Assembly: GCA_964035015.1 (NCBI GenBank)
Contig: CAXIUP010000236.1
Span: 1 to 64,000, forward strand
From: Corallium rubrum
Lineage: Eukaryota; Cnidaria; Anthozoa; Scleralcyonacea; Coralliidae
Direction of reading: 5' to 3'
Length of the DNA stretch: 64,000 bases
The stretch's first letter is position 1. Each line of letters begins with the position of its first letter. Below the pieces are notes generated by a model. That model ran no database searches and was not told the origin of the DNA. It saw only the letters and a list, made by a program, of their open reading frames with translations. This document shows positions 10,352 through 56,304 of this stretch, piece by piece. A program made the position numbers and the translations under genes.

Positions 10352-10948
10352 TACTTACTAAGCACAACATGATTGGTCAATTTCAACAGGAAGTTTGCAA
10401 TTGCAAGCAGATTCCAGGAAGTTGTCAACATTTCAAGGAAGCGCTCGAAACAGCTATGTACATGTATTTCACCTGATGCACATACTAAGTCTATTATCTT
10501 TATGTATTTACATGCAGCTGATGCAGCAAATCAAAACTGAGGAAAAAATTAATAATAGTTACAACTGCCCACAACTAATATTCTGAGCATGCGCAAGAGG
10601 TAAAAACATTGCTTTGCTGGTGCTGGGAAAAATATAACCTCCAATAACCTCCATCTCCAAAAATATTATTAACTCTGCAACGTAACTTGCAATTTAAACA
10701 AAAAAAATACCAGTATACAATAAGGTGAAATAAATGTTTAAAAAAATTAAATAAAACAATTATGGAACTGGTTTTTCACAAAATACATGTATTTTGATTT
10801 GACAGTGCCTTACTGACCAACTACTAATGACTTGCCTCTGCCATCAGCATCGGCAAATAATTAACTGGCTTGCCACTGCCAAATTGCAGTCTTTTCCTCT
10901 GGCTCTTAACTGCTCTACAAATATTATGTGGTAAATTGTGCATGTAAC
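10352..10948. other. Spacer without recognisable gene
   Basis: This is ordinary AT-rich sequence between the satellite edge and the 3' end of the minus-strand integrase-like gene. A 63-codon frame at 10395-10586 has no recognisable motif. I see no repeat or RNA gene here. Confidence 0.6.
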
Positions 10949-12400: not shown

Positions 12401-12457
12401 TTTGAAAACGGCGGAATCATGAGCACGACAATACGCACTATCATGCGCACGCATCAT

Positions 12458-15766: not shown

Positions 15767-15895
15767 GTGAAAAATCTTGTGTCGTTCGTATCAAACTTAT
15801 CGTGGAGTATTTGACTTTGTTCGCTTGGAGTTCAACATAGTGTAAGTATAAAACATTTCATAGTCGTGGAAGACCACGAATGAAGAGAAATAATT

Positions 15896-27962: not shown

Positions 27963-28841
27963 ATGACCAAGAAATTAGAGTATTTTTCAGGAGAAGACGG
28001 CACATTGTTGAAGCCATGGCTCGATCGTTTCGACGCCGTAATCGAAGCCGAAGGAAAGGCGAGTAAAGCAGCCGCCATTATTCGCACTTGTTTAAAAGGG
28101 GATGCAGCGCAAGTGGTAAGAGTAATGTCAGACGATGACAGGAAAGACCTTGACAAGATCAAAGCTGAACTTCTTAAGCAGTTTGACAGACGAGATAAAA
28201 CGCAGATTCAACGTGAGTTTTACAACAGAAAGCTTGAAAGTGGGGAGTCTGTTGGAAAATTCGCTCGAAGCCTTCGACAACTTGCCAAAGAAGGATTTCC
28301 TGGTTGGGAAACTGCAGCTCGCGATCAAATCGTGAAGAGCCAGTTTTTGCATGGAATACCTAACGACCTTCGTACCCAGTTATCCGTGGCTTTTCAGTAC
28401 AAAGTGGATGATGCCTCGTTGAAAGATCTTGAGGAATTTACTACCAATTGGGAAAGAAATGGAGGAAGGGCAACTGCTTCCATACAGCAAGTAACCGTGG
28501 CTTTACCAACACAAGATTCGTCGGAAACCGTTCAAACCGCAGTGGAGACAGCCCTTGGTAATCTGGAAGGGAAACTTTCCGAAATAGAAGCAAAAGTAAA
28601 CCGTGTTTTTACTAGACAAGACAAGTACAACAGACAAGATAAGTCCACCAGATCAAGCCAATGAAGAAACCAACCACACAGTGAAACAAACGGTGGGTGC
28701 TATAAGTGTGGCTCGTTTGGTCATTTCAAGAGAGTCTGCCCCCAGATAAAATCCCAAATTGTTTGTTACCGCTGTGAGAAACAGGGACACAAGGTTAGTG
28801 AATGTCCTGATTTACCTTCATGGTTACGCCCAAACTTCTAA
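27963..28841 (+). pseudogene. Gypsy gag with two zinc knuckles, broken by one stop codon
   Basis: The likely start is the ATG at 27963, because the seven codons before it overlap the primer site. A capsid-like region runs to an in-frame TGA at 28662-28664. The same frame then continues to TAA at 28839 and encodes two CCHC knuckles, CYKCGSFGHFKRVC and CYRCEKQGHKVSEC (about 28698-28811). The position and unbroken frame beyond it argue that the TGA is a point mutation rather than the true end. Gag would form the capsid and bind RNA. Without read-through, this copy would make a capsid lacking knuckles and no frameshifted pol. Confidence 0.85.
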
Positions 28842-36540: not shown

Positions 36541-37015
36541 CTGCAATAGAAAGCAATACTTGTAAAAAATAAAGACTGCAGTTGAAGCGGTATGTATAGC
36601 ATATTGCAGTTATTGTTGTTTATATTTTAGTCACAGTAACAATAAAACGAAATTAATTTTACAAATACTAAAGTGTTTTTTTTTCTCCTTTCCGTATGTA
36701 CATGAAAAACACATTTCATCACTAACATCTCCACTATCTCGAAGAGGTAAGATTGCTCAGTGGCATGCTCTGTATTTTTTAATATATATGACGATTTTAC
36801 TAAAGCCAACTTGATTTAGATTTTTTATAATCCAATTTGAAGTATACTCTTAGCCTATACAAATGCCCATGGAACTCGATTGCAGCCAATTTCTGTGCCC
36901 TACATATTTTAGAACGGTTGAATCTGTATTTAACATTTCGAACGACGGCGTTATGTCACATCACTATTTAGAAGTATACCAACCTTTTAGTATTTTAGAT
37001 TCGTATGTAACCTAC

Positions 37016-39269
37016 CTTCTTGTTGGCGATCTTCTCTACTACGTTTATCACACTCACTGATCGTGAAGCTGGTTTTGTCTTGCGTTTTTTCCTGAGGGAA
37101 AGCCCCTTATGAAACACTTTGTGATAATCTGGCTTGATTTTTAATTTTTTCTTTACAGGACTTCCTCTGAGGAAAAGACCTTCTGCTTTCGGACAACACG
37201 CGCGACGTTTTGCTTGAAGATTGTCAACAATAGTTATTGCCTCTTGGAGAACGTTTACATCTTCCACCAGATAAGGGACATCCCTCAATCCGGATACTTT
37301 ATCCTGAAATTTTCTCTTTAGTTTGGCATGAACTGACAACTCGGGTGGGGTGAAGGAGTTTTCTGTGCCTGCTGTACATTCTGGTGTCACTGATTCAGCT
37401 TGTGGGCTTTCTGGAAGAATGGGCGGATCTTTCAGGCGTTCGCTAGATTTAGACAACTGGTCGTGAGCGATTTCAGTTGAATTCATGGGTAGATGATCTG
37501 TGTCAAGGGTAATGAAGACATTGTTTCGATAGGCGTCTGGTAAATTGGAAAATTGCCATTCGGAAAAGAAATTGAAGATGGCAAAGAAATGCTTGCACGG
37601 GAAACACTCTGTCTCCAAGATTCGCATGCGCATCTCGGAACTGAAAATTGTACCAGGTAATCGACTTTTTTGTTCCTAGAACTCTTGACAAGAAATTCCC
37701 CTTTGTCATGATTCACACAGGTGATATGATTTTCATGAATCTCGTGGGCAGCGAATTTTTTCTTCAGGCAATGCTTTATAAAGTTCGGCGGGCGGTTTCT
37801 TAAGTAGTCTGGAACGATAGGGTTATACTTCCTGTATGAACTACTTAATCTTAAGTTCGCGCTTAGGTAGGCTTGGTACGTGTCGGGCAGGAAAGAAGTT
37901 ACAATCATGACGGCAATGCCATACAGAGACTTGTCGATGGATCTTGGTAAATAGTCATACTTGAATAGCCTGTTCATAGATTCTACTCCATTGTTTGTGT
38001 TTACAATGTTTAATGCTTGGGACTTTCGGAATGCATGACACCATCGAAAAGAACAGGGAATCCACGTTTTCTCTACATAATTTCGAACATTCACTTTCGT
38101 TTTGTAGATGGTTGATTCGCGAAGCTTGGACAACGCATCGTTATAGAGCCTTTCCGTTGGTGCGCTACCAATTGTTGTCATGGCAGACTGAAAGAACTCC
38201 TGTTCGTTGCAATCCAGACCATTCTTTCCAGTTCTGGCCCAACGCTGGATTGCTTGTTGACGATGGAAATCACAAATATATGCAACAGAATGGGGAAACC
38301 GTGCTTCAATTGCTCCTATTTCAGCAACTGAAAAATCCACCATGAAGTACTTCGGGCTCCACTGTGGGTTCCATACCTGCAAGATTCGGCAATGGATAAT
38401 TCATCTTCATGTTGACACATGAACTCCGCAACTACCTTGTAGCCAACATTGGTTTTCACGCATAAGAAAAACAGAGGCATAGCGTATTTCGTGGTTTTGT
38501 AAGTTGCGTCAAGTAGGACAAGGTCACTTCCAAACTTAAGCAAAAGTTTTCGTTGCCATTCTTCTTGGTGAACAAACAGAAAATTATTGCAGCTGCTTGA
38601 AGGGACAGTGTCGCCAAAGCAATTCGGTTCACCTTCGTGGGTTCGGAGAAAGAACTTGGTTGTCGGCGAGGACTGTTTCCAATCTTTTATTTTGCGGAGA
38701 AGAGATTCTTGATCGTCGTTGCAATATTTTTGAGCCGTAACTGCTCTTGCAACGTGATTTCGCAGGTCTTTGGTACTGGGGTAGTACTTACGATTTGTCT
38801 TCTTAGGCAAACTGTTTTCTGGAACACCAACGAATAATTCTTTCACCACGAATTCCTCAAGGCAACGCTTCACTTCTTTAATGGCGGTAACATTGTTATT
38901 CGCTAGTTCGTAAATACGTTCGATGATTCTTCTATCGACGGTCTGGTTTACAGAAGCGTTTTCGCCAACCGCATGACCAGAGTGCTCTTTGCTTAGAGGA
39001 ATTTTCATGTAATATCTGAAAGACGTATTAACCACCTCGTTTGCTCCCAGTTTTTCCTTCAGAACTTCCAGTGTTTTTTCCTTAGCTACCCGAATGCTGG
39101 TGGAAGAAGAAAAAGTGCCTGAAAGCTCGAAATCGTCAAATACTTGAATATGCCGTATTTGTATTGTGGCTGGGCAATTTAGTTTCCGTGTCCCTTGAAG
39201 CTTTATTCTGTGATTTCTACCATAGTTATGGTCATTGATGCGTTTTTGTTTCCAACCAGCTCTTGCATC
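37016..39269 (-). pseudogene. Large exon: CaRF-like end, MULE transposase core, SWIM finger
   Basis: The 2,254-nt exon lies between TACTTGCAG and AAGAAG/GTAGGT. The first part has GTRKLNCPATIQIRHIQVF, a CaRF-like stretch. The MULE core follows, with likely acids in LLDATYKT, FMVDFSVAE and NNGVESMN, and with the conserved CDFHRQQAIQRW. The SWIM finger is CAC then PCKH in two frames. One frame break lies at about 38380-38386 and one at about 37601-37615 inside the SWIM finger; each is explained by one missing base. The length is two short of 752 codons, which fits two single-base losses and the phase-0 borders. The C-terminal part is basic (KKKLKIKP, SLRKKRKTKP). Confidence 0.75.
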
Positions 39270-39714
39270 CTGCAAGTAGTACAAACATATTATTACTGAG
39301 TGACACGGAAGTGCAAAGTTCCAGATTGACATTTTTATATTTTTGCGCAGTAGTTGGTTCTCAGTTTGCTCGCTCACCCTTTATCAAATCTTCAATGCAC
39401 ACAACACAGCAAATACACTTTACTGAATAAAAACCTTCAAATTATTGATTTTTTGCGTTGTAGACATGAAGCATGGCATCCCATATTGTATAAGCCCTTT
39501 TTTATATCCCGCATTATTAAACACAGCTTAGCCGGTATAATTTTGAAACTGGAGCGAAGTTAAAAAACAGCTAATTTTTTTGGGTCGGTGTAGTCGAACC
39601 TATATGTATAAAGTTTAACGTAAGAACTAAATTAATGTATCTGTTTCGCCTGCTTTACCAAGGTTTTTTTTTAGCTTGGATTCTTAAATTTTACAAAATC
39701 AATTTGTTCCATAC

Positions 39715-41410: not shown

Positions 41411-42075
41411 TTTGAAAAACTTCAGTTGAAATGCTGAAAATAAATGGACAAAAACTGGTTGTTACAGTATGATTGTGTAACTGTCAGGCAGTTCAATTGT
41501 TTTATAAACATTCTAGTTTTGTTGCAGTTTAATTGTTACATAAAGGACCTGGACATAAATCAGAGCAGGGTTCTTTTTGATTATGTTGTCATATTAGTTA
41601 TAATTAAAGTGTTTATTGTACAAAAGCAAGGGGACACATCCATTTTGAGCTTGTTGTTGGACCAACAGCAAGTACCCTTCCTCGAAAAAGAACCTATTTA
41701 AGAACCTAAATAGCCTAAAATCCCAGTAAATATCACTTATATAATATTCTTATATGCGGGTTTTATGACAATTGACAAACGAAGTACTAGTTTGCAACCA
41801 GTAGCTTCAATGACGACAACAAAACCGATTCATTGTCTAGTACCTTTAGAACCTGGGCAAATGTACTCTCTATCGTCCATTATCTAAGAGTGTTCACTGT
41901 TCAGTCAAATGAACAACCAACCGTTAGTTAGAACTATTCGGCCTTAAGCCAACCACACATGATACATCGTCATTCTTATCGAGATTTTCAAGCCGTAAGG
42001 GTTGCTTAAATTAACAAATATACGTATGTTATATACTTGCGTCTTTTATATTCCTGTGTTAGCCTTTTCTCTACG
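41411..42075. other. Spacer, probably including the 5' non-coding part of the DIRS-like element
   Basis: No gene is supported. The DIRS-like gag starts at 42076, so its left terminal repeat should lie here, but I could not match it to sequence after 55560. Confidence 0.4.
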
Positions 42076-42712
42076 ATGCCTGTTACCAGAACGCGTTCTT
42101 CTCGCTCTACTGTACAAGGCACGAACGTACACCGCGCCAATGCAGTCGCACGCGATCCTTCAACTATCTCAATTCCTGAAGACTTGGAGCAGCTTCACAC
42201 TCCACAACTGCGGAATCTTTGCTGCACTCTCAATGTTGAACGCTGGAGGCCGACGGATGCTGAAAACCCGCCTTTTAAACGAAAAGAACCGTCGCCAGGG
42301 CGAATCAGCAGTCAAAGCGCCATCCAGTGCTGCTACCGTTCCTGTTGGCCAAGAGCAAACAGTGCCACAGGCCTCGACTGGCTTTAACGACGCACAGATA
42401 GCGCAGATTACCAGCATCGTCCAGAGGTCCATCGAAACGTTTTTCGACGACCGGCACCGAGAAACGGACCCAGTCAGCCCAGCCATCCAACGCCAAACAC
42501 GCCAGCCGAACGACGAACCAGCGAATCTTCTTGACCCTGGCAGACGGCGACCTCTCTCCAGAGGTTAGAGCAACCTGGCCAGTCGTTCCCGTTCCTGACA
42601 TTGCCTGAGTCATGCCAACCGCAGTCCCAGTGGCCCATTCACCAGCTGACGGAGGTTTCACGCCTGAAATCCCAGCAAAGTTCATCCGTGACATCGAAAG
42701 CGGTGAGTTTTT
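42076..42712 (+). pseudogene. DIRS-like gag, 5' part
   Basis: From the ATG at 42076, MPVTRTRSSRSTVQG leads into IPEDLEQLHTPQLRN, a helical N-terminal stretch; the frame then shifts near 42235-42245 to KTRLLNEKNRRQGE and DAQIAQITSIVQRSI, and again to IPAKFIRDIESGEF at the right edge. At least two frameshifts are needed. The content resembles the Pro/Gln-rich gag of DIRS elements. The Helentron begins immediately after GEF. Confidence 0.7.
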
Positions 42713-42736
42713 GTATCTACTGCGAAGCAGTAGATA
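42713..42736. repeat. Helentron left end: inverted repeat and hairpin
   Basis: TATCTACTGC and GCAGTAGATA are separated by 3 nt, giving a 10-bp stem at the extreme left. The outer 11 bp also pair with the right subterminal copy at 52266-52276. Confidence 0.85.
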
Positions 42737-42751
42737 TTATGTTGTCGCGCT

Positions 42752-42807
42752 GTTAAGTTAAGTTAAGTTAAGTTAAGTTAAGTTAAGTTAAGTTAAGTTA
42801 AGTTAAC
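42752..42807. repeat. (GTTAA)n microsatellite
   Basis: About eleven copies of GTTAA just inside the left end of the Helentron. Microsatellites in the terminal part are common in these elements and their non-autonomous relatives. Confidence 0.92.
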
Positions 42808-42895
42808 AATAGAATGCCCTCGGAGCCAATCAAAATGTAGAAGAATGAAACGACAATAATACGACAACTTACGACTGATAGCCGATTGTTACCGC

Positions 42896-45277
42896 ATGGT
42901 AGAAATTGAAAACGCCATTCGAATTCTATATTTTTTGTGGCTGATATGTCAGAAGAAATTGCAAGTTTGGGTAAGTATTTTCAAGATGATTTATAGTGAA
43001 TTTGTAAGTGTGATCCACTACCCTCTTCGGAGGAAAGTTATTGAGCCTCTTCGGAGGAAAGTTATTGAGCCTCTTCGGAGGAATATTATTGAGCCTCTCG
43101 ATGAGAGGAATGTTATTGAGCCTCTCGATGAGAGGAATATTTTTGAGCCTCTCGATGAGAGGAATATTATTGAGCCTCTCGATGAGAGGAATATTATTGA
43201 GCCTCTCGATGAGAGGAATGTTATTGAGCCTCTCGATGAGAGGAATATTTTTGAGCCTCTCGATGAGAGGAATGTTATTGAGCCTCTCGATGAGAGGAAT
43301 GTTATTGAGCCTCTTAGTATTGAAGCTAAATTGGTCCAGGAAGAAATCGAGCGAAACAATGTTTGTTCGCATAGCTCTGTTGATGTTTGCACTACGAATA
43401 ACAACGATTTAAGTCCTTGTTTGAATAGTTCTAGATCGACTGTAAGAAAATTAATCAGACAGTTGAATGTTGGACGATTTAGAGACCGAGAACCGTCTAG
43501 AATACCAATCAAGAAGATTATGCAAGCATTAAGAAAGAGAAAAAATAGACAAAGAGTTAAGCGAGTACTTAGAAGATCTACTCCTAAGTCATCCATTTTA
43601 AATACGTTAGCTACTAATTATAAAGATTTTTATGTTAAATTTGTACACAGACGTAATCTTTTTACACAGTCCTTTGGACATATTTTTAAACATATTTCCA
43701 GTAAAGTCCACAAGAGTAATCACAGAACACAGAATTCTTTGTGTAAGTCGTGTAATGTTTTTGAGCATGCTTTAAATAGTGACTTGATGACTGTGCCCAA
43801 CAACTGTAATTGTGTCAATGAGCAATATTGTGTTTCTTACCAGAACCTTCTGATGTCTGGTGATATTGAATTAAACCCAGGTCCTGTGCAAAATGAAAAC
43901 AGGGAAACTAGAATAACACTACCCTCACATGTAGTATTAGAACAAAGGTTACGTATATTTCAGCTGAGACCACTTGATGTTGGTGGTGCAGGTGATTGTT
44001 TTTTTAGAGCTGTTTCACATCAGTTATATGGTGATCCAAGTCATCACTTAGATATAAGAGCTGCTGGTATCACGTATATGAGAGAGAATCCTGAGAGATT
44101 TATTGAAAGCCATACAGAGCATTCTTGGTTACAATACCTTAATAACATGTCTATGCAAGGGACATGGTGTGATGGTTTGATTATACAAGCTGTTGCTGAC
44201 CAACTTAATTTAAGAATTGTTATTACTGAATCTTATGAACATTTTTGTCAGTACAATTTTATACGAGCTGTATCTTCAACACAGCGACCAACGGATGTTT
44301 TTTTGGGACATATAGATGAATACCATTATGTATCAACAGTGCCATTTTCTGGAAGTTCAAATTTAATTGAAAATCAGTGCAAAGATTTAGATAGATTAAA
44401 GGAAAATGTTTTGAAAAACAAACTAATTGATAAAAATGTTAAAAACAGTCGTAATTCTTACATGAAAGAATACATGAAAGCAAAACGGCTAACTAAGGAC
44501 CCTCAAAGTAAACAAAATACCAATGAGTACATGAAAGAATATATGAAAGCAAAACGGCTAACTAAGGACCCTCAAAATACAAAGAAGAATAATGAGTATA
44601 TGAAGGAGTATATGAAACAAAAACGGTGTGCACCTCAAACTTTACAAAGTTTAATATTAAAGTTTCATGATATTGTCTCCAAGGGTCCACTTTACATATG
44701 CAGTTGTTGTGACCAATTGTGGTACAAACATAGTGTGTCTTCTGCTGCAACTTTAAGGAAAACTAATCCTGACATTAACAAATATCTTCTTCATAAGACA
44801 AGTGTTGATAATGTTGAATGGTTGTGTAGATCATGTCGTAACTACTTAGTGAGGACTAAAGTTCCACCTTGTGCTGCTGTAAATGGGATGCAATTCCCAC
44901 CAAAACCAACATTTTTTGACCTGAATGAATTAGAATGTAGATTACTTGCACCAAGATTAGCATTTCAAAAAATCATGCAAGCCCCCAGGGGAAAACAATT
45001 GAAAATCAATGGCAACATTGTAAATGTTCCAGCAGACATAACTAATACTGTCAGCATGTTGCCAAGGTTACCAAATGAAACTGGAACCATTAAAGTTAAT
45101 CTAAAGAGAAGACTGCAATATAAAAGTTCAGCTTTATCTTTGAATGTAAGACCACACAAAGTAGTGCAGGCTGCCAACTGGCTTGTTGAAAACAGTAGTC
45201 TTTACAGAGAAGAAGGGATAGCTTTTAATGCAAATTGCTTGAATGTAGTTCTAATGTTTTATTACCACTTGAAATAG
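42896..45277 (+). CDS. Helentron ORF1: repeat region, 2A-like site, OTU protease, DUF6570-like region
   Basis: A 793-codon frame from the ATG at 42896. Residues about 40-140 are the hairpin-encoded repeats, then a basic region. GDIELNPGP at 322-330 is a 2A-like ribosome-skipping motif that would release the OTU part as a new chain starting at P330. The OTU protease follows (about 355-485) with D367-C368 in GGAGDCFF and the likely His at 477 (EYHYVS). Next are three repeats of YMKEYMKAKRLTKDPQ type, then a Cys-rich CSCC...CRSC region similar to the DUF6570 segment found before Helitron helicase domains. The frame ends at 45277, apparently through loss of one A near 45271-45274, because the adjacent frame continues with NSDPEQLGD. 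OTU proteases cleave ubiquitin; the target here is unknown. Confidence 0.85.
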   Translation: MVEIENAIRILYFLWLICQKKLQVWVSIFKMIYSEFVSVIHYPLRRKVIEPLRRKVIEPLRRNIIEPLDERNVIEPLDERNIFEPLDERNIIEPLDERNIIEPLDERNVIEPLDERNIFEPLDERNVIEPLDERNVIEPLSIEAKLVQEEIERNNVCSHSSVDVCTTNNNDLSPCLNSSRSTVRKLIRQLNVGRFRDREPSRIPIKKIMQALRKRKNRQRVKRVLRRSTPKSSILNTLATNYKDFYVKFVHRRNLFTQSFGHIFKHISSKVHKSNHRTQNSLCKSCNVFEHALNSDLMTVPNNCNCVNEQYCVSYQNLLMSGDIELNPGPVQNENRETRITLPSHVVLEQRLRIFQLRPLDVGGAGDCFFRAVSHQLYGDPSHHLDIRAAGITYMRENPERFIESHTEHSWLQYLNNMSMQGTWCDGLIIQAVADQLNLRIVITESYEHFCQYNFIRAVSSTQRPTDVFLGHIDEYHYVSTVPFSGSSNLIENQCKDLDRLKENVLKNKLIDKNVKNSRNSYMKEYMKAKRLTKDPQSKQNTNEYMKEYMKAKRLTKDPQNTKKNNEYMKEYMKQKRCAPQTLQSLILKFHDIVSKGPLYICSCCDQLWYKHSVSSAATLRKTNPDINKYLLHKTSVDNVEWLCRSCRNYLVRTKVPPCAAVNGMQFPPKPTFFDLNELECRLLAPRLAFQKIMQAPRGKQLKINGNIVNVPADITNTVSMLPRLPNETGTIKVNLKRRLQYKSSALSLNVRPHKVVQAANWLVENSSLYREEGIAFNANCLNVVLMFYYHLK
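43018..43316 (+). repeat. Hairpin minisatellite array in the Helentron 5' region
   Basis: Three 24-bp units contain CCTCTTCGGAGG (a 4-bp stem with a TTCG loop), followed by eight 27-bp units containing CCTCTCGATGAGAGG (a 6-bp stem with a GAT loop). Both unit types keep a perfect palindrome although the sequence between the arms differs. Unit lengths are multiples of three, so the reading frame stays open (IEPLDERNV-type repeats). Confidence 0.9.
43859..43885 (+). promoter_or_regulatory. 2A-like ribosome-skipping motif
   Basis: The codons read GDIELNPGP, matching the D(V/I)ExNPG-P consensus needed for translational skipping. The break would fall between Gly329 and Pro330, upstream of the OTU domain. 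Confidence 0.8.
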
Positions 45278-45278
45278 C

Positions 45279-45894
45279 GATCCTGAACAACTCGGTGACC
45301 AATCACAAAACATAGAGTGTGATACATTACCAGTAGATATTACCGGTAAGTCACAGGTAACAGTTGATGATGAAGATAACTGGAGTGAAGATGAGGTAGA
45401 GATCCCGGCTGGGGTCACAGATACCATGTTAACAGCAACTGATTTCATGACAGAATGAACGTCAGCATATTTTGAATGTTGCACCAGCTGAAGGCAGCAG
45501 GCCTCAGTGTATTTAGAGATAAATACTCCGAAGAATTAGCATATCCAGGTATTTTTCTTGGTCAAAAGCGACCTGACAATGCTAATAGACTTACAGATGT
45601 TCATTATAGTGAAGTTTGCAAGTCTGAGTTAAGGCGGTCTGACAGAAGGGCTGCTATGTGTGTAGAAAATATTTTCTTTAAAACAAAGAAACTGCAAATG
45701 AAGATTTTACTTGGGAAAAGTCAAGTTGCCTTGAGAAAATGTCAAGGTAACAATGGTTCAATTAAAGCAGGTCAGCTGAAACAGACAGGTGCGATAGAGA
45801 AACTAATTCACCATGATGAAGGTTTTAAGTTTCTAAGAGCATTAAGAGGTTCACCCCCATATTTTAAAAGGCTAAAAAAGATATCTTTGCAATG
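45279..45894 (+). pseudogene. Helentron Rep-helicase, N-terminal part, in broken frames
   Basis: From 45279 one frame encodes NSDPEQLGDQ through WSEDEVEIPAGVTDTMLT to 45458. The neighbouring frame then gives NERQHILNVAPAEG, and the 45476-45895 frame gives FRDKYSEELAYPGIFLGQKR and [17 protein letters not shown]. These are the usual N-terminal motifs of Helitron proteins. Three joins are needed: near 45458, near 45510 and in the A run at about 45875-45880. The last looks like one missing A, after which [10 protein letters not shown] continues in the next frame. Confidence 0.75.
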
Positions 45895-47322
45895 ATAAGA
45901 CAACTAGGCTCAGCCTCTTTGTTTTGTAGTTTTTCATCTGCAGAAACACAATGGGTTCATCTTCTTAGAATACTTAGTACAATTGTCAACAACAGAGAAT
46001 ACACTGACAATGAGTTAGAGAATCTCAACTGGGAGGAAAAGTGCAAGTTGATTCAGAGTGACGCAGTTACTTGTGCTAGACATTTTGACTATCAAGTAAA
46101 TCAGTTTTTGCGAAACTTCCTTATGAGTAGTCTTGCACCTCTAGGGAAAATTGCAGACTGGTTTTATAGAGTTGAATATCAACAAAGGGGTTCACCTCAT
46201 ATTCACATGTTAATATGGTTAGAAGATGCTCCAGTCTTTGGTGTTAATAATGATATCGAAGTCATAGCATTTATTGATAAAATAATTAGCTGTAAAAAGC
46301 CAACTGATAATCCTGAGTTACTTAAACTTGTTAACAGGCAAGTGCATCGCCATTCTCACACTTGCAGAAAAAAGTCAAAAACACAATGTCGTTTTAATTA
46401 TCCACAACCACCTATGCAGTCAACAAGAATTCTTTATCCTTTGGATGTTGATGATGAACGTAGTGAACACCATAAAAATGTGTGGAAATCAATAAAAAAG
46501 CATTTAAATGATTTGAAAGAGGGTGAAGACATCACATTTGACCAACTGTTAAAAAATTTGGATATAACCGAACAAAATTATTTGCTTGCTATACGATCAG
46601 GGCTAAATGCACCAACCATATTTCTAAAGAGGCAGCCAAATGAATTAAGAATAAATAATTATAACCCTGCTTGCCTTAGTGCATGGCAAGCTAATATGCA
46701 TATTCAATTTGTCCTTGATGTCTATGCATGTGCAATGTACATTGTATCATACATTTCTAAGGCACAAAAAGGCATGAGTGAACTATTGAGAACTGCATGT
46801 GCTGAAGCTAGACGAGGAAACTCTACTATCAAACAGCAAGTAAGAGACATTGGTAATAAATTTTTGAACAATGTTGAAATTAGTGCACAGGAAGCAGTTT
46901 ATATTGTGCTCCAGCTTGCAATGAGAAAATCATCTCGTCAAGTTGTGTTCATAAATACTGCACCCCCAAGAGATAGAGTTCACTTATTAAAGTCAATAAA
47001 TGACATCCATGAAATGGATGATGATTCAGAGGAAATTTATGCCACAGGTTTGTTAAAGCGATATAGCAAACGCCTTCCTAGCCTTGAACATGTGTCTCTT
47101 GCTGACTGGGCTGCATGGTATGATTCTTGTGGTAAGCCACATGTCAAAAAATCATGTGAACTTGATATTGATAATCTTCCACTTGAGACAAACATTGATG
47201 ATGATGATGATGATGATGATATAGAGGAGGAAAATCAGCCATGTGTAAAAAACAATAAAAACAAGAGGAGATCAAAAGCTAGAATTATACGAAGCATTTG
47301 CTTTAATAAGGTATTTATGTAG
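45892..47322 (+). CDS. Helentron Rep nuclease (HUH) segment
   Basis: The frame encodes the replication-initiator domain. [10 protein letters not shown] holds the HUH metal-binding pair (H103 and H105), and [10 protein letters not shown] holds two tyrosines (Y283 and Y287) in the YxxxY arrangement of Y2 Rep proteins. The enzyme nicks and rejoins single DNA strands during rolling-circle transposition. The C-terminal end has an acidic run (nine Asp) and a basic stretch. The frame stops at 47322, and the normal continuation [11 protein letters not shown] appears in the adjacent frame at 47321-47353, so one T is probably missing in the TTT at about 47310-47316. The ATG at 45892 is therefore internal to the real protein. 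Confidence 0.88.
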
Positions 47323-47351
47323 ATTCTGAGAAACATTATCGGGAACTGATT

Positions 47352-49865
47352 ATGTTGTTTACAGCATGGAGAAATGAAGAAACTGATTTGATTGGTAATT
47401 GTTCTTCATATCAAGAATATTTCTTTCAAATAAAAGATGTAATAGACGAGCAAATGGAACAATATGCTATATGCAATGCAGATTTGAATGAGATTCAAGA
47501 TCAGTTAAACAACGCAGATGATAATGATGATAATTATGATTTAATTGCCCCAGGAACACAGGACATTGAACGCCGAGATGAGTCTGAGGGTGCACAAGAC
47601 CTGCATCCTGATTTTAATGAAAATTATGATCTTTCCAATGATATTGGAATCCCTTCTACTGCCTCAAATAGAGAACAGCTTATATTAAATGAATTACAAG
47701 ACTGTGATTACAGACAAATGGTACAGAAATTAAACAAGGAACAAAAAGAGTTTTTCTTTCACATTTTACATCTTATTAAAACAACTGATAAGCCATTTCA
47801 CTGTTTTCTCAATGGAGGAGCTGGTGTAGGAAAATCACATTTGACCAAAGCATTGTATCAAGCAGCACTAAAATATTACAATACAAGAGCTGGTGATGAC
47901 TTTCATCAAGTAAAGGTGCTATTGCTTGCCCCAACTGGTAAAGCTGCTTTTAATATTAAAGGTAACACAATACACAGTGCCCTTGCAATAGCAGCATGCC
48001 AATCATTAAAGAATTACAAACCTCTTGATTCAAGCAGACTAAACACCTTACGAAGTCAACTTGGTGGTCTAAAATTAATATTCCTTGACGAGATATCAAT
48101 GGTTGGTAGTACAATGTTTAATGTTCAGATTAACAACAGACTCAAAGATATTAAGGGAAGCAAAGAAGACTTTGGTGGTGTTAGCATAATTGCAATTGGA
48201 GATTTGTTTCAGTTACAACCAGTGATGGATAGATACATATTTAAAGAGCTTGACAATTCTGCATATGCTATTCTTGCTCCTAATCTGTGGCAAGACCACT
48301 TTAAAATGTTTGAGCTTCAAGAAATTATGAGACAGAGAGAGAGCAAAGTATTTGCTGAAATTTTAAACAGACTAAGGGAAGGTAACCACACAGAAGATGA
48401 CATTTTAAAAATTAAGGAAAGAATGATTGAAGAAAATGGTATACGTGATCCAATGGATGTGCCACATTTGTTTATTCAAAACATTAAGGTGAATGAGTTC
48501 AATGAAAGAGTTCATCGTGCAGCAACTGGTGAAAAATATTCCATTAAAGCAGTTGATAGTGTAATAGGAGCTAACTCTGCTCAACTCAGAGATAAAATTA
48601 TCAGTCAAATACCAAATGATCCTAGGAAGACTAAACAAATCATTTCAAATCTCCAATTAGCAATAGGTGAAAGAACAGAAATAGCAGTAAATGTACGAAC
48701 TGAAGATGGCATGACAAATGGTGCTGGTAATGTCATTAGAAAAATACAATTAAACCAAAGAGATAAACCATCAGGGATAATATGGGTACAGTTTGATCAT
48801 GCTAATGTCGGTGAGAAGACTAGACATGAGAATAGGCAACTTTATGTCCAAGGTATTGAACCAACATGGATTCCAATAAAACCAATCACTACTCAGTTTG
48901 CTGTTGGTAGAAATCAAACAGCTCAAGTTGTAAGAAAACAGTTTCCATTGCGGCCAGCTGCTGCTAAAAGAATTCATCGATCACAAGGTGATACTGAGCA
49001 AAAAATAGTTGTTAATTTTAATACTAGAGGAGCAATACCTCATATACATTATGTTGGTCTTAGCAGAGTAACAACGATAGAGGGATTATATGTCACTGAC
49101 TTGTGTGAACAAAAAATAGCTGTCAATCCTTTTGTGAAGGCTGAAATGGAGAGTTTACGAACTGAACGTTGTCTTAAACTTAGTGTGTCTCCTATTTATA
49201 GTTTTGATCAAGTACTATTTAAAATTTGCTTTCTAAATGCAGGGTCATTACACAAATATATTGATGATGTTCGCCATGATCTAAATTATACAAGTACTGA
49301 CATCAATATTTTTTCAGAAACAAGATTTATTAGTTCAGATAATGATAATATGTATGCAATTGATGGCTATACCTTGTTTAGAAATGATGCTCAATCATCA
49401 GTAACTTCAAGACCTTATGGAGGTACAGCAGTCTGTAGTAGGGTTGAATTTATTCCTGGGTATCCACGTGCTTATAATATTAATGGTGTTGAGATAACTA
49501 TTATGAAGGCAATGATTCTTCCACATGTAACCATAATAGGTGTATATCGCTCACCTAAAATTCCTGTACAGCAATTGTGCCATGCTTTAAATGAGCTACT
49601 TGCATTTTCAACTTCTCAGTTCAATATTGTTATTGGTGATTTTAATATTAACTGGTTAGATCAAACCAATAGAAGGTCCCTATATAATCTATTTGTAAAT
49701 GATTATAATTACAGACAATTAATATCCAGTTGCACAACAGACAACGAAACAATTATAGATCATATTTATACAAATCTACCTGAATCACAAGCTAATGTAC
49801 ACATTTTAGAAACCTATTTCTCTGATCACAAAGCAATATGTGCATTAATTAATTGTTTTAATTAA
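47352..49865 (+). CDS. Helentron PIF1-family helicase with C-terminal endonuclease
   Basis: An 837-codon frame that in an intact element is fused to the Rep segment. Residues about 125-580 form a PIF1-type 5'-3' DNA helicase: Walker A GGAGVGKSHL (about 155), PTGKAA, Walker B FLDEISMV (about 245), GDLFQLQPV, and late motifs RIHRSQGDTE and YVGLSRVT. The remaining part (about 615-837) is an EEP-type endonuclease with FSETRF, GVYRSP, GDFNIN and SDHKAI. A C-terminal EEP nuclease separates Helentrons from classical Helitrons. No stop interrupts these domains. The nuclease resembles those of non-LTR retrotransposons and was probably acquired from one. Confidence 0.93.
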   Translation: MLFTAWRNEETDLIGNCSSYQEYFFQIKDVIDEQMEQYAICNADLNEIQDQLNNADDNDDNYDLIAPGTQDIERRDESEGAQDLHPDFNENYDLSNDIGIPSTASNREQLILNELQDCDYRQMVQKLNKEQKEFFFHILHLIKTTDKPFHCFLNGGAGVGKSHLTKALYQAALKYYNTRAGDDFHQVKVLLLAPTGKAAFNIKGNTIHSALAIAACQSLKNYKPLDSSRLNTLRSQLGGLKLIFLDEISMVGSTMFNVQINNRLKDIKGSKEDFGGVSIIAIGDLFQLQPVMDRYIFKELDNSAYAILAPNLWQDHFKMFELQEIMRQRESKVFAEILNRLREGNHTEDDILKIKERMIEENGIRDPMDVPHLFIQNIKVNEFNERVHRAATGEKYSIKAVDSVIGANSAQLRDKIISQIPNDPRKTKQIISNLQLAIGERTEIAVNVRTEDGMTNGAGNVIRKIQLNQRDKPSGIIWVQFDHANVGEKTRHENRQLYVQGIEPTWIPIKPITTQFAVGRNQTAQVVRKQFPLRPAAAKRIHRSQGDTEQKIVVNFNTRGAIPHIHYVGLSRVTTIEGLYVTDLCEQKIAVNPFVKAEMESLRTERCLKLSVSPIYSFDQVLFKICFLNAGSLHKYIDDVRHDLNYTSTDINIFSETRFISSDNDNMYAIDGYTLFRNDAQSSVTSRPYGGTAVCSRVEFIPGYPRAYNINGVEITIMKAMILPHVTIIGVYRSPKIPVQQLCHALNELLAFSTSQFNIVIGDFNINWLDQTNRRSLYNLFVNDYNYRQLISSCTTDNETIIDHIYTNLPESQANVHILETYFSDHKAICALINCFN

Positions 49866-50313
49866 TTGTATCGTTAAATATATTATATTAATATTGCAAT
49901 AACTGGCATTTAGCTCCAGCTACACAGGAGATAATCATATCATACTTAGTTTTAAGTAAAAGCATTTTCGCTAGGCATGTTGCAAGAGAACCAGGTAAGC
50001 ATTTCTTATTGTTATTCCTTTCCCCCAGACCCATGCAACATCATCCATTATCAGTAGTATGTCCACTGGTGGGGGTGGGGGGCAGCATGTGCCACCCTCA
50101 CCCTACACATACATCGATGCTGTGCTGTCTACGTACCAGAAGAATTCAGCTAATATAATCCATCTGGTAACTATACCCCTGATGTGAATCTTTGTCCCCC
50201 TCAACACCAAATACCCTTGATTTGTATCATGTAAAAATTATAGATTACATTTTATGGCTGACCTTTATTATTATCATTAATTGTTTTCGATTGTCCTTGT
50301 GTTTTAAGGCATT
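49866..50313 (+). other. Spacer between Rep-helicase and RPA genes of the Helentron
   Basis: AT-rich and non-coding. It must hold the 3' end of the first transcript and the promoter or 5' UTR of the RPA gene. TGTTTTAAG just before the RPA start could be a 3' splice site. No structured repeat is seen. Confidence 0.45.
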
Positions 50314-51555
50314 ATGAGCAATGAGGACAATACCATGGACAATATAACTCCCACTGATGTCCAGAACAGTGAACATGCAAGTAGTGGCACATCCGGTGAA
50401 CAATTCATTGCAACCAGTGACGATTATCCTATAGACAATCTAGACCTTACTCAACTTTTTAGCACTGAAGTTGCATCTACCACTCAATCACATTCTTGCA
50501 GTGATCAAGAAGAAACCCAGCATACTCAAACTGAGACAGAATCTCCTTCAGTTGCTGATAAAGAAGACGAAATTGTGGGATATATTCATAATCTGTCACC
50601 TTTAAAGAGTGGGAAGTACTTTGATTTTCAGTTGCAAGGAAAGGACAAAACAGTCCGAGGGATTTGCTTCTCTCCGCCAAAGCTTAAACGATTCGAAGAA
50701 TTCAGCAACACAAGCTCCCCTGTAAAAGTAAAGAAATTTCGTATTGATACACAATCAAATTCTGAAGATTATATTATGGAAAGTGATATGTCAATTGAAC
50801 ACTTTCCTGACGTAAACTTTCAGAAACAACAAATGTCTACCACCATGAACATCTCTACTGTCAAAACTCTGTGTATTGGACAATTACGTACACTGAAAGC
50901 AAAAGTGGCACACCTACATGTGCCAAAGAAAGTACAATCTCAGAACCTACTATTGCAAGAAGCTATGCTTGTAGATCCTTCCGGCACAATTAAATTTGTG
51001 CTATGGGAGAACTTTGTTGGCACCATACAGCAAGGTAGCACGTATTCATTTCATGACATAAGAGTAAAGAAAGACAAATTCTCAAGTGAAATCTTTCTAA
51101 ATACTGCAAAAAATGGTAGCAAAATCACCGATGAGCAACCGTTCCAAGAGATGCTGCCTGTAACAGCAGAAATGCCAAGTACCACAGTTACTGCAGAACT
51201 GAAGGGTATCACTAAGGTTGCTTGCTACCTGTGTTGTTACAAATGCAACAAGAAAATTGAGCCCACTCCATCTCGCATTGTTCATTGTTCAAGCTGCCAT
51301 TTCAAGCAAAAGCAGTCAGCATGCCATAACCATTGGTATGCACAAGTGGTATTCGAAGAAGTTAACACCAAGAAGAAAATTAACCTGACCTTGTTTCAAG
51401 ATGCCATTAAACAAGCAATTCAGCTCAACAACTGTGCTGAACAAGAAAGTCATCTCACTGAATTGGACATAGAAGAAGTTCTACTTACCTTGCCAGATAC
51501 TCTTATGGTCACATACCATAAACAAAATAGAGTTGTTACAAAAATTGCAATATAA
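50314..51555 (+). CDS. Helentron-borne RPA-like single-strand DNA-binding protein
   Basis: A 413-codon intact frame with an ATG at 50314. An acidic, Ser/Thr-rich N-terminus is followed by an OB-fold region (about 185-290, with LLLQEAMLVDPSGTIKFVLW) and a zinc-ribbon region with CYLCCYKC and HCSSCHFK (about 305-335), as in the third DNA-binding domain of RPA70. RPA-like genes are known cargo in Helitrons and Helentrons, where they may protect the displaced strand. It lies downstream of the Rep-helicase on the same strand and inside the inverted-repeat borders, so it moves with the element. It is shorter than cellular RPA70 (about 600 residues) and lacks the N-terminal interaction domain. Confidence 0.85.
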   Translation: MSNEDNTMDNITPTDVQNSEHASSGTSGEQFIATSDDYPIDNLDLTQLFSTEVASTTQSHSCSDQEETQHTQTETESPSVADKEDEIVGYIHNLSPLKSGKYFDFQLQGKDKTVRGICFSPPKLKRFEEFSNTSSPVKVKKFRIDTQSNSEDYIMESDMSIEHFPDVNFQKQQMSTTMNISTVKTLCIGQLRTLKAKVAHLHVPKKVQSQNLLLQEAMLVDPSGTIKFVLWENFVGTIQQGSTYSFHDIRVKKDKFSSEIFLNTAKNGSKITDEQPFQEMLPVTAEMPSTTVTAELKGITKVACYLCCYKCNKKIEPTPSRIVHCSSCHFKQKQSACHNHWYAQVVFEEVNTKKKINLTLFQDAIKQAIQLNNCAEQESHLTELDIEEVLLTLPDTLMVTYHKQNRVVTKIAI

Positions 51556-51856
51556 GATGTACTCTTCATTACTACCAAACCATACAATTATGAACATGTG
51601 AACCTTTCTAGAAACACATTTTGTATACGTTGTGTGCACTGTTCATATTCGGACCTTATGATCCAAACATACATTTGTTTCACATTGAAGCTTGTATAGC
51701 GACAGTTACCTCGTTGTGTTCAATTCATTGTTTATGTTGTTTATTTTTGTTATATGTTTACGTTGATGTTAAATAAATGTTGCGTTTGCTCATACTTTGT
51801 TGTTATTGTTACATTAGCACGGTTAGCCAGCATTGCCCAGAAAGAAATGAGACTAA

Positions 51857-52087
51857 AGACCGAGACACACCACACGCGATTCGGCAACGCGACGCGATTT
51901 TTCAATCTTTGAAGGCAAATAAAATTGTCCATGAAAGGAAATTTTGGAAGCCATGTAGAGCAGATAAGTCAAGATGTACTAGCGCTATGAAATTTAAAAA
52001 AAGATTATATCAGGAACAAATTTACTTGCTTTTGAAAATTGAAAAATCGCGCCGCGTTGCCGAATCGCGTTCGGTGTGTGTGGGCCT
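51857..52087. mobile_element. 231-bp MITE inside the Helentron, with TAA duplication
   Basis: Long inverted ends (about 55 bp, containing CGCGATTCGGCAACGCG and GCGATTTTTCAAT) are flanked by TAA on both sides (51854-51856 and 52088-52090). The 3-bp TAA duplication matches PIF/Harbinger-type targets. It inserted in the Helentron 3' non-coding region, after the RPA gene. Confidence 0.8.
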
Positions 52088-52265
52088 TAACTGTGTACTG
52101 TAGAGAGAATCGCAAAAATTCAAATAAATTAGCTGCGGCAGCACACACACAGATTGCGGTGCTATTTTTATTATACGAAATACATTCATTGCATTGTAAC
52201 TTTGTTACTATACTACTAGTGCTTCATCAAAATGTACATTATTTGTACTGCTACTTGTGTTCACT

Positions 52266-52297
52266 GCAGTAGATACATGCACGCCTGGGCGTGCCTA
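52266..52297. repeat. Helentron right end: subterminal inverted repeat and hairpin
   Basis: GCAGTAGATAC (52266-52276) is the exact complement of the left terminus. Two bases later GCACGCC and GGCGTGC form a 7-bp stem with a 2-nt loop, followed by CTA and the T run where the DIRS gag resumes. A hairpin close to the 3' end is the transposition terminator in Helitrons. Confidence 0.85.
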
Positions 52298-52936
52298 TTT
52301 TTTGAATTGTCTAAACTGTTGCCAAAAAACCTCAATAGGTCGAATGTTGGGTCAGATTACCCTGACAACAACGTCAGTTTTACAGTTTCCGCTTCTGGAA
52401 TCTCGTTAACACCCAGGAAACCACAGGTCCTTACAAATATTGAGGACTGGACAACAGCTTTCAACACCTATATGCTGATCGTTGTTCACAAATTCCCGAC
52501 TCACGCTGGTGAGCTACTCCAGTATATGGAAACTATTCGGCATGCTGCTAAAACGCATGGTGGGTTGGGGTGGTGCATCTATGACCACAAATTTCGATAC
52601 AAAGCCGCCAATTGTCGCACGATGTCCTGGGCTACAATAGACACCCAACTGTGGCTCCGTATTTTTACTGCCAGTTCCGAACAACTTCGCGAAGACTATT
52701 CGTTTTTTTCAAACGCACCCTCATACAAAGGAACTGGGGCAACGAGGGACGGATTCTGCCACAGTTACAACCAAGGACGACCATGTCCTAATAAGCCAAA
52801 TTGCCCCTACGCACATCGATGTAACCGACCTGGGTGCGGGGGAAACCATCCTGGGTACAAATGCTCAACCCACAAAGGTGTCTCCAAAGAAGCCACCGAG
52901 AACCATACAAGCCGAGGTTCCAATCGCAGAAAGTAG
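52298..52936 (+). pseudogene. DIRS-like gag, 3' part with Cys/His fingers
   Basis: From FFELSKLLP the frame runs through WTTAFNTYMLIVVHKFP and WATIDTQLWLRIF to a finger-rich tail, with CHSYNQGRPCPNKPNC and HRCNRPGCGGNHPGYKC. This is the usual gag C-terminus of DIRS-like elements, probably for nucleic-acid binding. The open frame also extends 22 codons upstream into the Helentron end, which is accidental. Confidence 0.82.
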
Positions 52937-54710
52937 TTGTAGTAATCGTAGTCATCCTAGTTCATGCACTTTCAATCGTAATATAGTTACACCAATTTGT
53001 GTTGACGTTTTAGAGCATGCTGTTCGAGAACATCCTGATCCATCATTTGTTTTGAAACTCTGCTCAGACTTGCGTTTCGGTGCTCGCATAGGTTATGAGG
53101 GCCCCCGTGTTCCCAAGGTTTCCAAAAACCTTAAATCTGCCGTTGAGAACCCAACTGTTGTTTCGACTAACATGGAAAGGGAAGTTGTTCTTGGCCATAC
53201 AGCAGGTCTTTTCACCAGTCCTCCCTTTGCTAACTTTCGCCGGTAGGTGTAGTACCAAAGAAACATTCCGACAAATTTCGCATAATCTTTCACCTTTCCT
53301 TTCCTTTCCGAAATCAGGTAGCTCTATCAATGCGTTTATCAGTTGCTTTTCTCTGCAATACATTAAGATTGATGATGCTATCTCAGCCTTAATCGATTAG
53401 GTCGTGATACATTTTTAGCAAAAACAGACATTGAATCGGCATTCCGTCAATTTCCGGTTCACCCAGATGATTGGGAATTACTCGGTATGCGTTGGAATAA
53501 TTTATATTATTTTGATAAAGTCTTGCCTTTCGGTTTGAGAAGCGCACCCTATATATTTAACCAACTTTCCGACGCTCTAGAATGGATACTTATAAATCAA
53601 TGTTCCATCAGCTATGTCGGTCACATTTTAGATGATTTTCTTATCATGGAGCCTTCAGCCACAACACAGCCCCCTTCGCAACCGTGTCAGGTGAGTCTAA
53701 CCAGCATGCTTCTAACCTACAAAAAGTTAGGCGTTCCTATTGCAGAACACAAAACTGATGGGCCAAGTCAGGTAATAGAGTTTTTAGGTCTCATTCTTGA
53801 CTCCAAATAAATGGAAGCCTGGCTCCCTAACGATAAGCTAGAGCGTTTAAAAAATGACTTGTTTTCCTGGGAAACGAGAAAATCAACTACCCTGAAAGAA
53901 TTACAATCACTCATAGGGACATTAAACTTTGCTTGCAAAGTCGTTCCTCCAGGTCGCGCTTTTTTGCAACGTATGATACAACTTAATCGAGGTATTACTA
54001 AATCACACCATCACATCCGATTAAATCATGGTTTTCACCAGGATATCAAAATGTGGCGAACATTCCTTCAGAGATAGAATGGTACAAACCTATTTCTAAA
54101 CTTGACCTGGGAAAATTCAAATGCTCTTTCTCTATTCACTGATGCTTCTGGTACCCTTAGTTTCGGGGGGATTTTTCAAAATCAATGGTTTCAGGGTTCT
54201 TGGTTACCACACCAGTCACTTGGCTGTAAGGATATTAGCATTGCCTGGCAAGAGTTGTTTGCAATCATAGCCGCAACATACATTTGGGGCCATACATGGT
54301 CTCAAAAGCGAATTCTCTTTTACTGCGACAACCAGACGGTAGTTTCAATAATAAACGCCAAACGCTCTAAAAGCCTGAGGATGATGGATTTAGTCCGAGC
54401 CCTGACCCTACAAACTCTTACACATAATTTCTATTTCAAAGCTATACACATACCGGGACACTGTAATGACATTGCTGATTCTATATCTCGTTTTCAGCTA
54501 CCCCGTTTTCGGCGTTTAGCTCCTCACGCAGATCAACATCCGCAAATCCTGCCAGAAATCTTTCTCGTCTTTAGACGTCGACTTACGCCGCTATCAAGTT
54601 GCCTCTTTAGCTCAAGGTACCTCAAGGACGTACAGCAGTGGAGAAAAACAATTTTTGAACTTCTACCATCAGTTTCATTTGCACAAAACCGGTCCTATCC
54701 TACCTACTAG
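52937..54710 (+). pseudogene. DIRS-like reverse transcriptase and RNase H, broken
   Basis: Pieces in changing frames give the full domain order: PICVDVLEHAVREHPD and GLFTSPPFANFR (52990-53243), VGVVPKKHSDKFRIIFHLSF (53242 on), GSSINAFI, LAKTDIESAFRQFPVHP, LPFGLRSAPYIFNQ, the catalytic HILDDFLI (about 53630), ELQSLIGTLNFA, and RNase H with LFTDASG and YCDNQTVV (54135-54350). Breaks: a lost C in the run at 53238-53242, a 5-bp CTTTC duplication near 53290-53310, a lost C near 53393, a TAA at 53808-53810 and a TAG at about 54076. The protein would copy element RNA and remove the template, but this copy cannot make it. Confidence 0.82.
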
Positions 54711-55560
54711 CGAAACTGTTCTTACCTACTTCGCTGTTTTTCTTGCAGACTGTAAATCCAGGCACCATAAAAGTATACCTTGCTGCGGTTCGTCATCTGC
54801 ACTTGATTAATGGCTTTGATCTTCCTGTCAACAAACTTACGCGTCTCCAATATGTCTTAAGAGGTATCAAGCGAGCTAAAGGCGTAACCACCAGGGAAAC
54901 TTAACTATAACTTAACCCCCTATAACTTTGGTCCATCTTACGTTATTTTACTGTTTACTACATTCACGTACCGTGCCTCTACTCGATGAACGTATACTTT
55001 GGGCTGCAATTTCATTAGCTTTCTTTGGCTTCCTTCGGATTGGTGAAATGACCTGTCCTCGACAATTCGACTCCTCTGTACATTTGACAAAATCCGATAT
55101 ATCTTTCCATCCTAATGGCATTTCAAGTAAAAGCCTACACATGTCGGTAAAAATCAAGGTCTCTAAAACAGACCCATTCCGCTCGGCAGTTACAATAACT
55201 ATTGGCGCCAATGACTCCGTTTTCTGCCCAGTTATGGCCATGAAAAACTACCTTTCCAAGTCCACGAGCTTAGTGGGTCCTCTCTTTCAGTACTCAAATG
55301 GTACACCTTTGTCACGTAGCCAGTTCACCAAAGAGCTACGCTTATTTTTGTCCCAGGGCGGGTATAATAGCTATAACTACTCTGGTCATAGCTTTAGAAT
55401 TGGCGCTGCCACAACTGCAGCTTCTCGCAGTCTACCTCACTGGCTCATCCAAACTCTAGGCAGATGGTCGTCTGACTGCTACTTGAGGTATATACGTACT
55501 CCAGTCAGTGTTCTAGCAGCTGTTTCAAAACAATTGATAACCGATGAGTCTCTTTCTTAG
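54553..55560 (+). pseudogene. DIRS-like tyrosine recombinase
   Basis: The N-terminal SAM-like part is readable in one frame at 54575-54745 (YQVASLAQGTSRTYSSGEK), then after a shift TIKVYLAAVRHLHLING, and after another the catalytic domain at 54928-55560. The catalytic part has the first Arg in RIGEMT, HSFRIGAATTAA (HxxR), and the nucleophile region LGRWSSDCYLRYIR. All catalytic residues I expect of a tyrosine recombinase are present in this last frame. The enzyme would integrate circular element DNA. Frameshifts before 54928 separate it from the binding domain. Confidence 0.82.
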
Positions 55561-55597
55561 AATATCATTTAGTAACTACTATTATGATCGCCGTCTT

Positions 55598-55675
55598 TAG
55601 TCTATGGGGATCACACACTTTGTGTGATTGTGGCGGAAATTGCTCCAGGATTGAGGTCACAATTGACCCATAGAC
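55598..55675. repeat. Nested hairpins after the recombinase
   Basis: ATCACACA-CTT-TGTGTGAT is a perfect 8-bp hairpin, enclosed by GTCTATGGG and CCCATAGAC. It lies just past the recombinase stop, where a DIRS-like element should have its 3' non-coding region and internal complementary region. Confidence 0.6.
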
Positions 55676-55763
55676 CTCTAATTCGTATGTACAATATAAG
55701 AAACTCGCCTCAGAGCCCACTGTTATCATTGAAAATCGCTCTGATGCCTATTTACAAATCTTG

Positions 55764-56000
55764 CATAGGAGTGTTTGCCCTGAGTAGATCAGGACCCAGT
55801 TCCATGACTGCATAGGAGTATATGTTCTGACCAGTTTTCAGGACCCAGCTCCAGTGACTGCATTAGAGTATTTGTCCTGAACATATTTTCTCAGGGCCCA
55901 GCTCCAATAGGAGTATATGCCCTGACTAAATTCTACTCAGGGCCCAGCTCCAATGATTGCATGAGAGTGTTTGCCCTGAATTCAGGGCCCGGCTCTCAAT
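55764..56000. repeat. Tandem repeat of about 51 bp, five copies
   Basis: Each unit contains GAGTATATG or GAGTGTTTG, then CCCTGA, a short AT stretch, CAGGGCCCAGCTCCA and TGACTGCAT. Copies differ by 10-20 percent and some lack a few bases. Not coding. Confidence 0.72.
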
Positions 56001-56304
56001 ATTCAATACTATTGTCTGCTGGAGCAGTTGTCCCACACTTCCATAACCCCACAAGACTGTTGTTGAGTTCATTATTTTATACTCAAATTATATGCATGTT
56101 ACTGAGTAGAGTACATTAATACTGTATTTATCTTGTTCTCTTGTTACTGAAATGAATCTTCTTACAAAATCAATGAGAAATCATACATGGCTTGTAGTGT
56201 TTCATGAATTTTCACAAATCTGACCACAAATGTAAACGTGTACAGTACTCAAGATAATGTGATGCCTAGTATATTTACTTTTAAATTATTGTTTCGTAAA
56301 ATTC

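Follow-up and report, generated by a model that had tools for sequence, protein, structure and literature searches.

What has split a retrotransposon gag gene in the Corallium rubrum genome, where does the inserted DNA begin and end, and what does it encode? In the stretch analyzed here (positions 1–64,000 of contig CAXIUP010000236.1, assembly GCA_964035015.1; hereafter the window, 64,000 nt), a body of ~9.6 kb at 42713–52297 interrupts gag in a DIRS-order retrotransposon. We are highly confident that the best explanation is a Helentron that inserted a copy of itself into a run of T residues within gag of this older retrotransposon, a reading that takes in the observed ends, empty site, T-run target, gain of T residues with no longer duplication, coding domains and family of copies. 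The host is an ordinary DIRS-order element and the insert an ordinary Helentron; the value of the locus is as a clear, verifiable case of the ends, target site and T gain of a Helentron. Features below lie on the plus strand unless stated otherwise.

The interrupted gag gene and its empty site

Copies were sought throughout the genome (474 Mb, 312 contigs). The gag flank to the right of the body gave 35 matches, the window's own counted, and the 14 best of the others (96–97% identical) all carry GGTGAG followed by exactly six T with no insert; the T run continues into GAATTG in 13 of these 14 copies and into GAGTTG in the gag copy L051. Among ten more distant gag copies that were cut out, nine likewise show six T, and one (L059) is unaligned at that point. 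The preliminary description of the locus had placed the insertion between T residues of a split gag motif, GEF/FELSKLLP. This placement is borne out by the empty site in all 14 close copies, by the T-rich flanks of other Helentron copies (below), and by the related retrotransposon L094 (the same copy as L040), in which a 451-amino-acid (aa) open gag frame within the 7.9-kb stretch examined reads IESGEFFELSKLLPKNL and contains GEFFELSKLLP uninterrupted. When the window flanks were joined in silico with 5–11 T, the stretch used contained a stop in the gag frame.

At the filled site, five T precede the body and six follow it, compared to six T at the empty site, a net gain of five T; the inserted DNA is therefore five T longer than 42713–52297. 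Those coordinates, given previously as the limits of the element, hold for the end bases, which are the same in a second full-length copy, and leave out the five inserted T. Thus, 42713–52297 is the T-free body between the T runs, and the insertion as a whole spans five more bases, e.g., 42713–52302 (9,590 bp with the extra T assigned to the 3′ end), with the exact placement ambiguous within the T runs 42708–42712 and 52298–52303. As in Helentrons, the target is T-rich, at least two T stand on each side, and there is no target-site duplication.

The interrupted host lies in two frame-broken parts. The left part (41770–42712; 93–95% identical to L094) holds the 5′ region and N-terminal gag, and comparison with other copies puts the true left end of the retrotransposon ~30 bp left of 41770. 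The right part (52303–56119; 96% identical to L094 over 52298–56119) continues with C-terminal gag, a CCCH-like finger, reverse transcriptase (RT, 53376–53810), RNase H (54078–54710) and tyrosine recombinase (54916–55560). RVT_1 and RVT_3 were matched in Pfam, and Phage_integrase fell below its cut-off in both the window and L094; an HxxR and a Y read by eye are presumably the tyrosine recombinase residues. The earlier reading of a DIRS-like host is thus upheld by gag, RT, RNase H and, instead of an integrase, a weak tyrosine-recombinase match. DIRS-order elements have terminal repeats that are either inverted or split direct. In L094, whose right end is unmapped, no left-right repeat was found, and a direct repeat with ~98-bp spacing lies near the right end. 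Because the recombinase match is weak and left-right repeats were not found, we assign the host to the DIRS order without choosing a subgroup.

Element ends and other copies

The ends of the body carry the palindromic features of a Helentron; elements of this group are described with a 3′ palindrome, subterminal repeats of 12–15 bp and microsatellites, and with two or more T flanking them on either side (PMC4067079). The 5′ subterminal inverted repeat, GTATCTACTGC (42713–42723), pairs exactly over 11 bp with 52266–52276, as had been noted before, and over 12 bp when T42712 and 52277 are counted; the 3′ partner on the minus strand (52266–52277) has the complement TGTATCTACTGC. An inverted match of at least 11 bp also arose in 11 of 4,925 random segment pairs (70 × 80 bases, drawn from 36000–63900); taken by itself the repeat therefore carries modest weight, and the proof comes from other copies. 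The previously reported 10-bp left hairpin is present at 42714–42736 (stem 42714–42723/42727–42736, loop GAA); its right counterpart at 52279–52294 has 7 bp as written, as reported, and folds with 6 bp and a 4-nt loop. A (GTTAA)11 microsatellite follows the left end (42752–42806) and is shorter in the second copy described next.

This second full-length copy, on contig C285 (97073–106666, minus strand), settles the ends. Its flanks are unlike those of the window, and it reads five T followed by GTATCTACTGC at the left and GCGTGCCTA followed by six T at the right. In 7,859 aligned columns it is 98.6% identical to the window copy; 1,919 columns that include a 27-bp tandem array give 92.2%. The alignment spans 42708–52307, and outside 42713–52297 the two copies share nothing beyond T runs and a few chance bases, which answers the concern that other copies might extend past these positions. 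Contig C23 carries a third copy, 98% identical as far as 52128 and divergent thereafter. Within the 3′ region, all three copies contain a palindromic insert resembling a miniature inverted-repeat transposable element (MITE; 51856–52088; 90-bp arms, 79% complementary). By eye this insert is flanked by TAA, and rows related to it were found elsewhere in the genome, with both orientations counted separately.

The right end recurs genome-wide: a 34-bp pattern (≤3 mismatches) gave 173 matches, compared to 0 for the reversed pattern. Flanks were examined at 30 loci cut out of the 173, bearing in mind that the pattern itself required two T. The T run after CCTA ranges from 2 to 9, with five T at 16 loci, six at 6, four at 4, and two, three, seven and nine T once each, so that at least four T are present at 28 of the 30; TTTT starts at ~1.1% of positions in 10501–64000. 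Beyond the T run the flanks differ among loci, except that L069/L093 and L087/L088 have flanks in common and those of L066/L067 are similar. Candidate left ends found near five of these loci, together with those of the window and C285 copies, are preceded by at least two T in 7 of 7 cases. One of the right-end loci, L080, is short (~350 bp), and such copies look like Helentron-associated interspersed elements (HINEs), the non-autonomous partners of Helentrons. With 173 right ends genome-wide, and at least 11 relatives in open frames longer than 2,300 aa, elements of this kind are not rare here, contrary to what the preliminary description had suggested.

Coding content and the state of this copy

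The coding domains fit those of a Helentron. Open reading frame (ORF) 1, counted from the first ATG (42896–45277), comprises an N-terminal region with a 27-bp tandem array (43030–43314; a 9-aa repeat in this reading), a 2A/StopGo motif discussed below, an OTU cysteine protease domain (43985–44251; PF02338, E 2.4e-11) and a DUF6570 domain (44855–45241; PF20209, E 3.8e-19), and stops before the Rep region. The window and C285 arrays align to each other with gaps. Between two frame interruptions lies a Rep-helicase (RepHel) fragment (45476–45895) that matches no Pfam family and is 25% identical (E 1e-09) to L001, a contig locus described below. It is followed by the HUH/Y2 Rep region (45868–47322; Helitron_like_N, PF14214, E 2.4e-20), with a motif 2 signature that includes FYR and GSPHIH at 46162–46206 and YIVSYISK at 46738–46761. 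A single ORF (47310–49865; 27% identical to L001 in an alignment extending through the endonuclease) then carries a PIF1 helicase (PF05970, E 4.5e-25) and a C-terminal apurinic/apyrimidinic (AP) endonuclease (Exo_endo_phos_2, PF14529, E 6.8e-06), in which we take the peptides GDFNI and SDHKAI to be AP endonuclease motifs. The last ORF (50314–51555; 413 aa) is RPA/SSB-like by a weak phmmer match to a solved SSB (E 5.7e-04). The Pfam order along the element is accordingly OTU, DUF6570, Helitron_like_N, PIF1, Exo_endo_phos_2.

A canonical Helitron or Helitron2 in place of a Helentron is very improbable: Rep and PIF1 helicase are common to Helitrons, and Helitron2 is likewise marked by asymmetric inverted repeats and a hairpin at either end (PMC5148889), but here the endonuclease sits in the helicase ORF, an OTU domain is present, insertion was into a T run, there is neither a 5′ TC nor a 3′ CTRR, and GSPHIH and FYR occur at Rep motif 2 as in Helentrons. 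Residues of that motif, namely F/Y-x-R ahead of it and the S in RGSPHxH, separate Helentrons from Helitrons (PMC4067079). An assembly join or segmental duplication, rather than transposition, is less probable still, for although the junction rests on one assembly, it falls in the T run expected for Helentrons, and identical ends occur in other flanks on C285.

Several observations weigh against assignment to the Helentrons with these ends and this cargo. The endonuclease, whose C-terminal fusion to the helicase is characteristic of Helentrons, scored 26.4 bits, just under the Pfam cut-off of 27.4. The RPA-like ORF matched no Pfam family at or above cut-off, and its AlphaFold2 model from single-sequence input was uninformative (mean predicted local distance difference test score 31). 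The right inverted repeat lies 20–25 nt from the end compared to 38–60 nt in mite HINEs (PMC4067079), and a candidate left end (one mismatch allowed) was found within 1.5 kb in only 5 of the 30 right-end loci. The endonuclease in the helicase ORF, the OTU domain and the Helentron-type Rep signature nevertheless support the identity first proposed, namely a Helentron.

The further proposal of a full cargo in a good reference copy fared less well. Rep, PIF1, AP endonuclease and OTU are present, with the RPA-like gene weakly so, but at least three interruptions split the main protein: ORF 1 ends at 45277, the next fragment begins at 45476, and Rep and helicase occupy two other frames. The coding part of the C285 copy is likewise split across several frames. 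Among the OTU matches listed, at least 11 belong to relatives with open frames of 2,303–2,536 aa (five at 76–78% identity, six at 44–49%), so that the window copy has no special standing as a reference. Introns may also account for the frame breaks, but relatives with open frames of this length make decay the more economical explanation. The frame-broken window copy would presumably need proteins from other copies for movement.

By analogy with the family, such an element would move through nicking and joining of single-stranded ends by the HUH/Y2 Rep and unwinding of the DNA by the PIF1 helicase; the new strand would be joined between T residues, with no target-site duplication and a T-rich 3′ end left behind. 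The OTU domain may act as a deubiquitinase.

A 2A-like motif in a rolling-circle transposon family

The preliminary description overlooked a 2A/StopGo motif, which is the part of this locus most worth following. SGDIELNPGP (43856–43885) lies in frame upstream of the OTU domain, in the protein context LLMSGDIELNPGP, and its DIELNPGP conforms to the octapeptide D(V/I)ExNPGP that forms the core of 2A/StopGo (PMC4981915, PMC12846837). If active, the motif would explain how two proteins arise from one long frame: the ribosome may release a protein of ~330 aa apart from the OTU-DUF6570-Rep-helicase-endonuclease protein. The product upstream of the motif is 329 aa from the first ATG, and its second half is basic (30 K+R compared to 9 D+E in 161 aa).

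By sequence comparison, the motif is a conserved part of these Helentron proteins. A degenerate DNA motif allowing Ile, Met or Val at the second place gave 215 genome-wide matches, compared to 0 in the reversed control. One hundred of the 215 (contigs C1 to C18:4478448) were compared with the 47 listed OTU matches that span the place of the motif, and D(I/M/V)ExNPGP was in frame in 40 of the 47, at query positions 62–74 (73 in the window). By identity class, it was present in 17 of 22 matches at ≥57% and in 23 of 25 below 57%. Among the seven OTU matches that lack it are L011, L013, two stop-bearing rows at one place and one copy with five stops; the other two, C8:6125503 and C1:69584259, have no internal stop. 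The other 60 motifs among the 100 fall elsewhere than in the OTU matches compared; several occur in repeated sequence forms, and they perhaps belong to other mobile elements.

Together, these patterns lead us to favor, with moderate confidence, a 2A polyprotein: an N-terminal product of ~330 aa with a basic second half, followed by OTU-DUF6570-Rep-helicase-endonuclease, an arrangement apparently kept across lineages 40–53% identical over the region and, in the one literature library searched, undescribed for rolling-circle transposons. The alternative, a relic or structural motif without ribosome skipping, seems to us possible though distinctly less probable. StopGo depends also on upstream context, and the strict octapeptide is found in six of the first eight OTU loci, the window included (L007, L008, L009, L010, L012 and L014), and is absent in two (L011 reads GDTELNPGP and L013 reads NPGR). 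Furthermore, in the nearer loci L009–L011, the 25-aa 2A segment (76–88% kept; 21/25, 22/25 and 19/25) is no better kept than the OTU and upstream region around it (84–89%), and two of the seven OTU matches lacking the motif are free of stops. Against a relic stand the 40 of 47 matches in frame and the 23 of 25 in the more distant class, the absence of reversed matches genome-wide, and the pattern in L012–L014, where the segment is 72–76% kept compared to 53–57% before the motif and 82–91% in the OTU domain.

If active, the motif would extend ribosome skipping to rolling-circle DNA transposons. 2A-like sequences were reportedly found in APE-type non-LTR retrotransposons by Odon in 2013. In excerpts of PMC4981915, 2A is described from RNA viruses, certain immune genes of sea urchins and non-LTR retrotransposons, of which the APE-type elements have an in-frame D(V/I)ExNPGP in a mobile-element protein as here; unlike those, the window element is a rolling-circle DNA transposon with the motif ahead of an OTU domain. 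In the one literature library searched, no paper combined Helitron with 2A-like or NPGP, and at least two papers in it, PMC9646362 and PMC10552921, contain Helitron and "translational recoding" once.

The closest described systems are the mite, Culex and Drosophila Helentrons and HINEs (Thomas et al. 2014, PMC4067079), which have an RPA gene, matched weakly by the RPA-like ORF here, and share with this element a Rep/PIF1/AP-endonuclease protein, an OTU gene, palindromic subterminal inverted repeats, a 3′ palindrome, a microsatellite, a T-rich target with no target-site duplication and many short derivatives. Unlike those systems, OTU and DUF6570 here occupy one ORF, probably joined to Rep in the open-frame relatives, and a 2A motif lies upstream of OTU, with neither NPGP nor 2A-like mentioned in that paper. 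The Helitron2-like FoHeli of Fusarium resembles it in a left hairpin with a GAA loop, asymmetric inverted repeats and a T-rich 3′ end (ATTTT), and in the excerpts differs in lacking the endonuclease and the RPA-like gene (PMC5148889). Deubiquitinase Helentrons of zebrafish and other animals have a RepHel with a C-terminal AP endonuclease, and some carry OTU; no VTD-type family is among the Pfam matches here, and 2A goes unmentioned in the excerpts of that work (PMC9741609). The same excerpts state that zebrafish Helitron VTDs are active and may shield transposition proteins from degradation, and that transposon OTUs are untested.

No relative was found in viral_contigs, scanned with two degenerate motifs as well as the Rep and helicase-endonuclease proteins, or in genome_contigs scanned with the Rep protein. 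A degenerate Rep motif picked out six loci (L001–L006) in genome_contigs. L001 aligns from Rep through endonuclease, L003 aligns with Rep and helicase and, weakly, with the RPA-like ORF, and L006 aligns weakly with Rep; L002, L004 and L005 gave no match to element proteins at E 0.01. Helentron- or Helitron-like genes thus occur in L001 (1–4691; a contig in a Photobacterium bin) and L003 (a sponge Cycloclasticus bin), contigs that are probably eukaryotic contamination of bacterial bins. A phage tblastn search returned 403 records, of which 20 were listed, and these match the helicase part only. Rfam gave no match and ARAGORN no tRNA.

Elsewhere in the window, positions 1–10352 are made up of short tandem repeats in degenerate form (GTTTAGTTA, GCTCAGTCA and variants; ~10 kb in all), with GC-rich sequence at 4–10 kb. 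An open frame on the minus strand (10949–12466; 504 aa scanned) matches an rva_4 integrase core (E 1.9e-79), and a frame-broken Mutator-like element (MULE)-like transposase with an ALS2CR8 match lies at 36995–39380, also on the minus strand. Two long open retrotransposon frames, of 2,087 aa (15884–22147) and 1,278 aa (28811–32647), resemble by eye BEL/Pao-type and Gypsy-type polyproteins.

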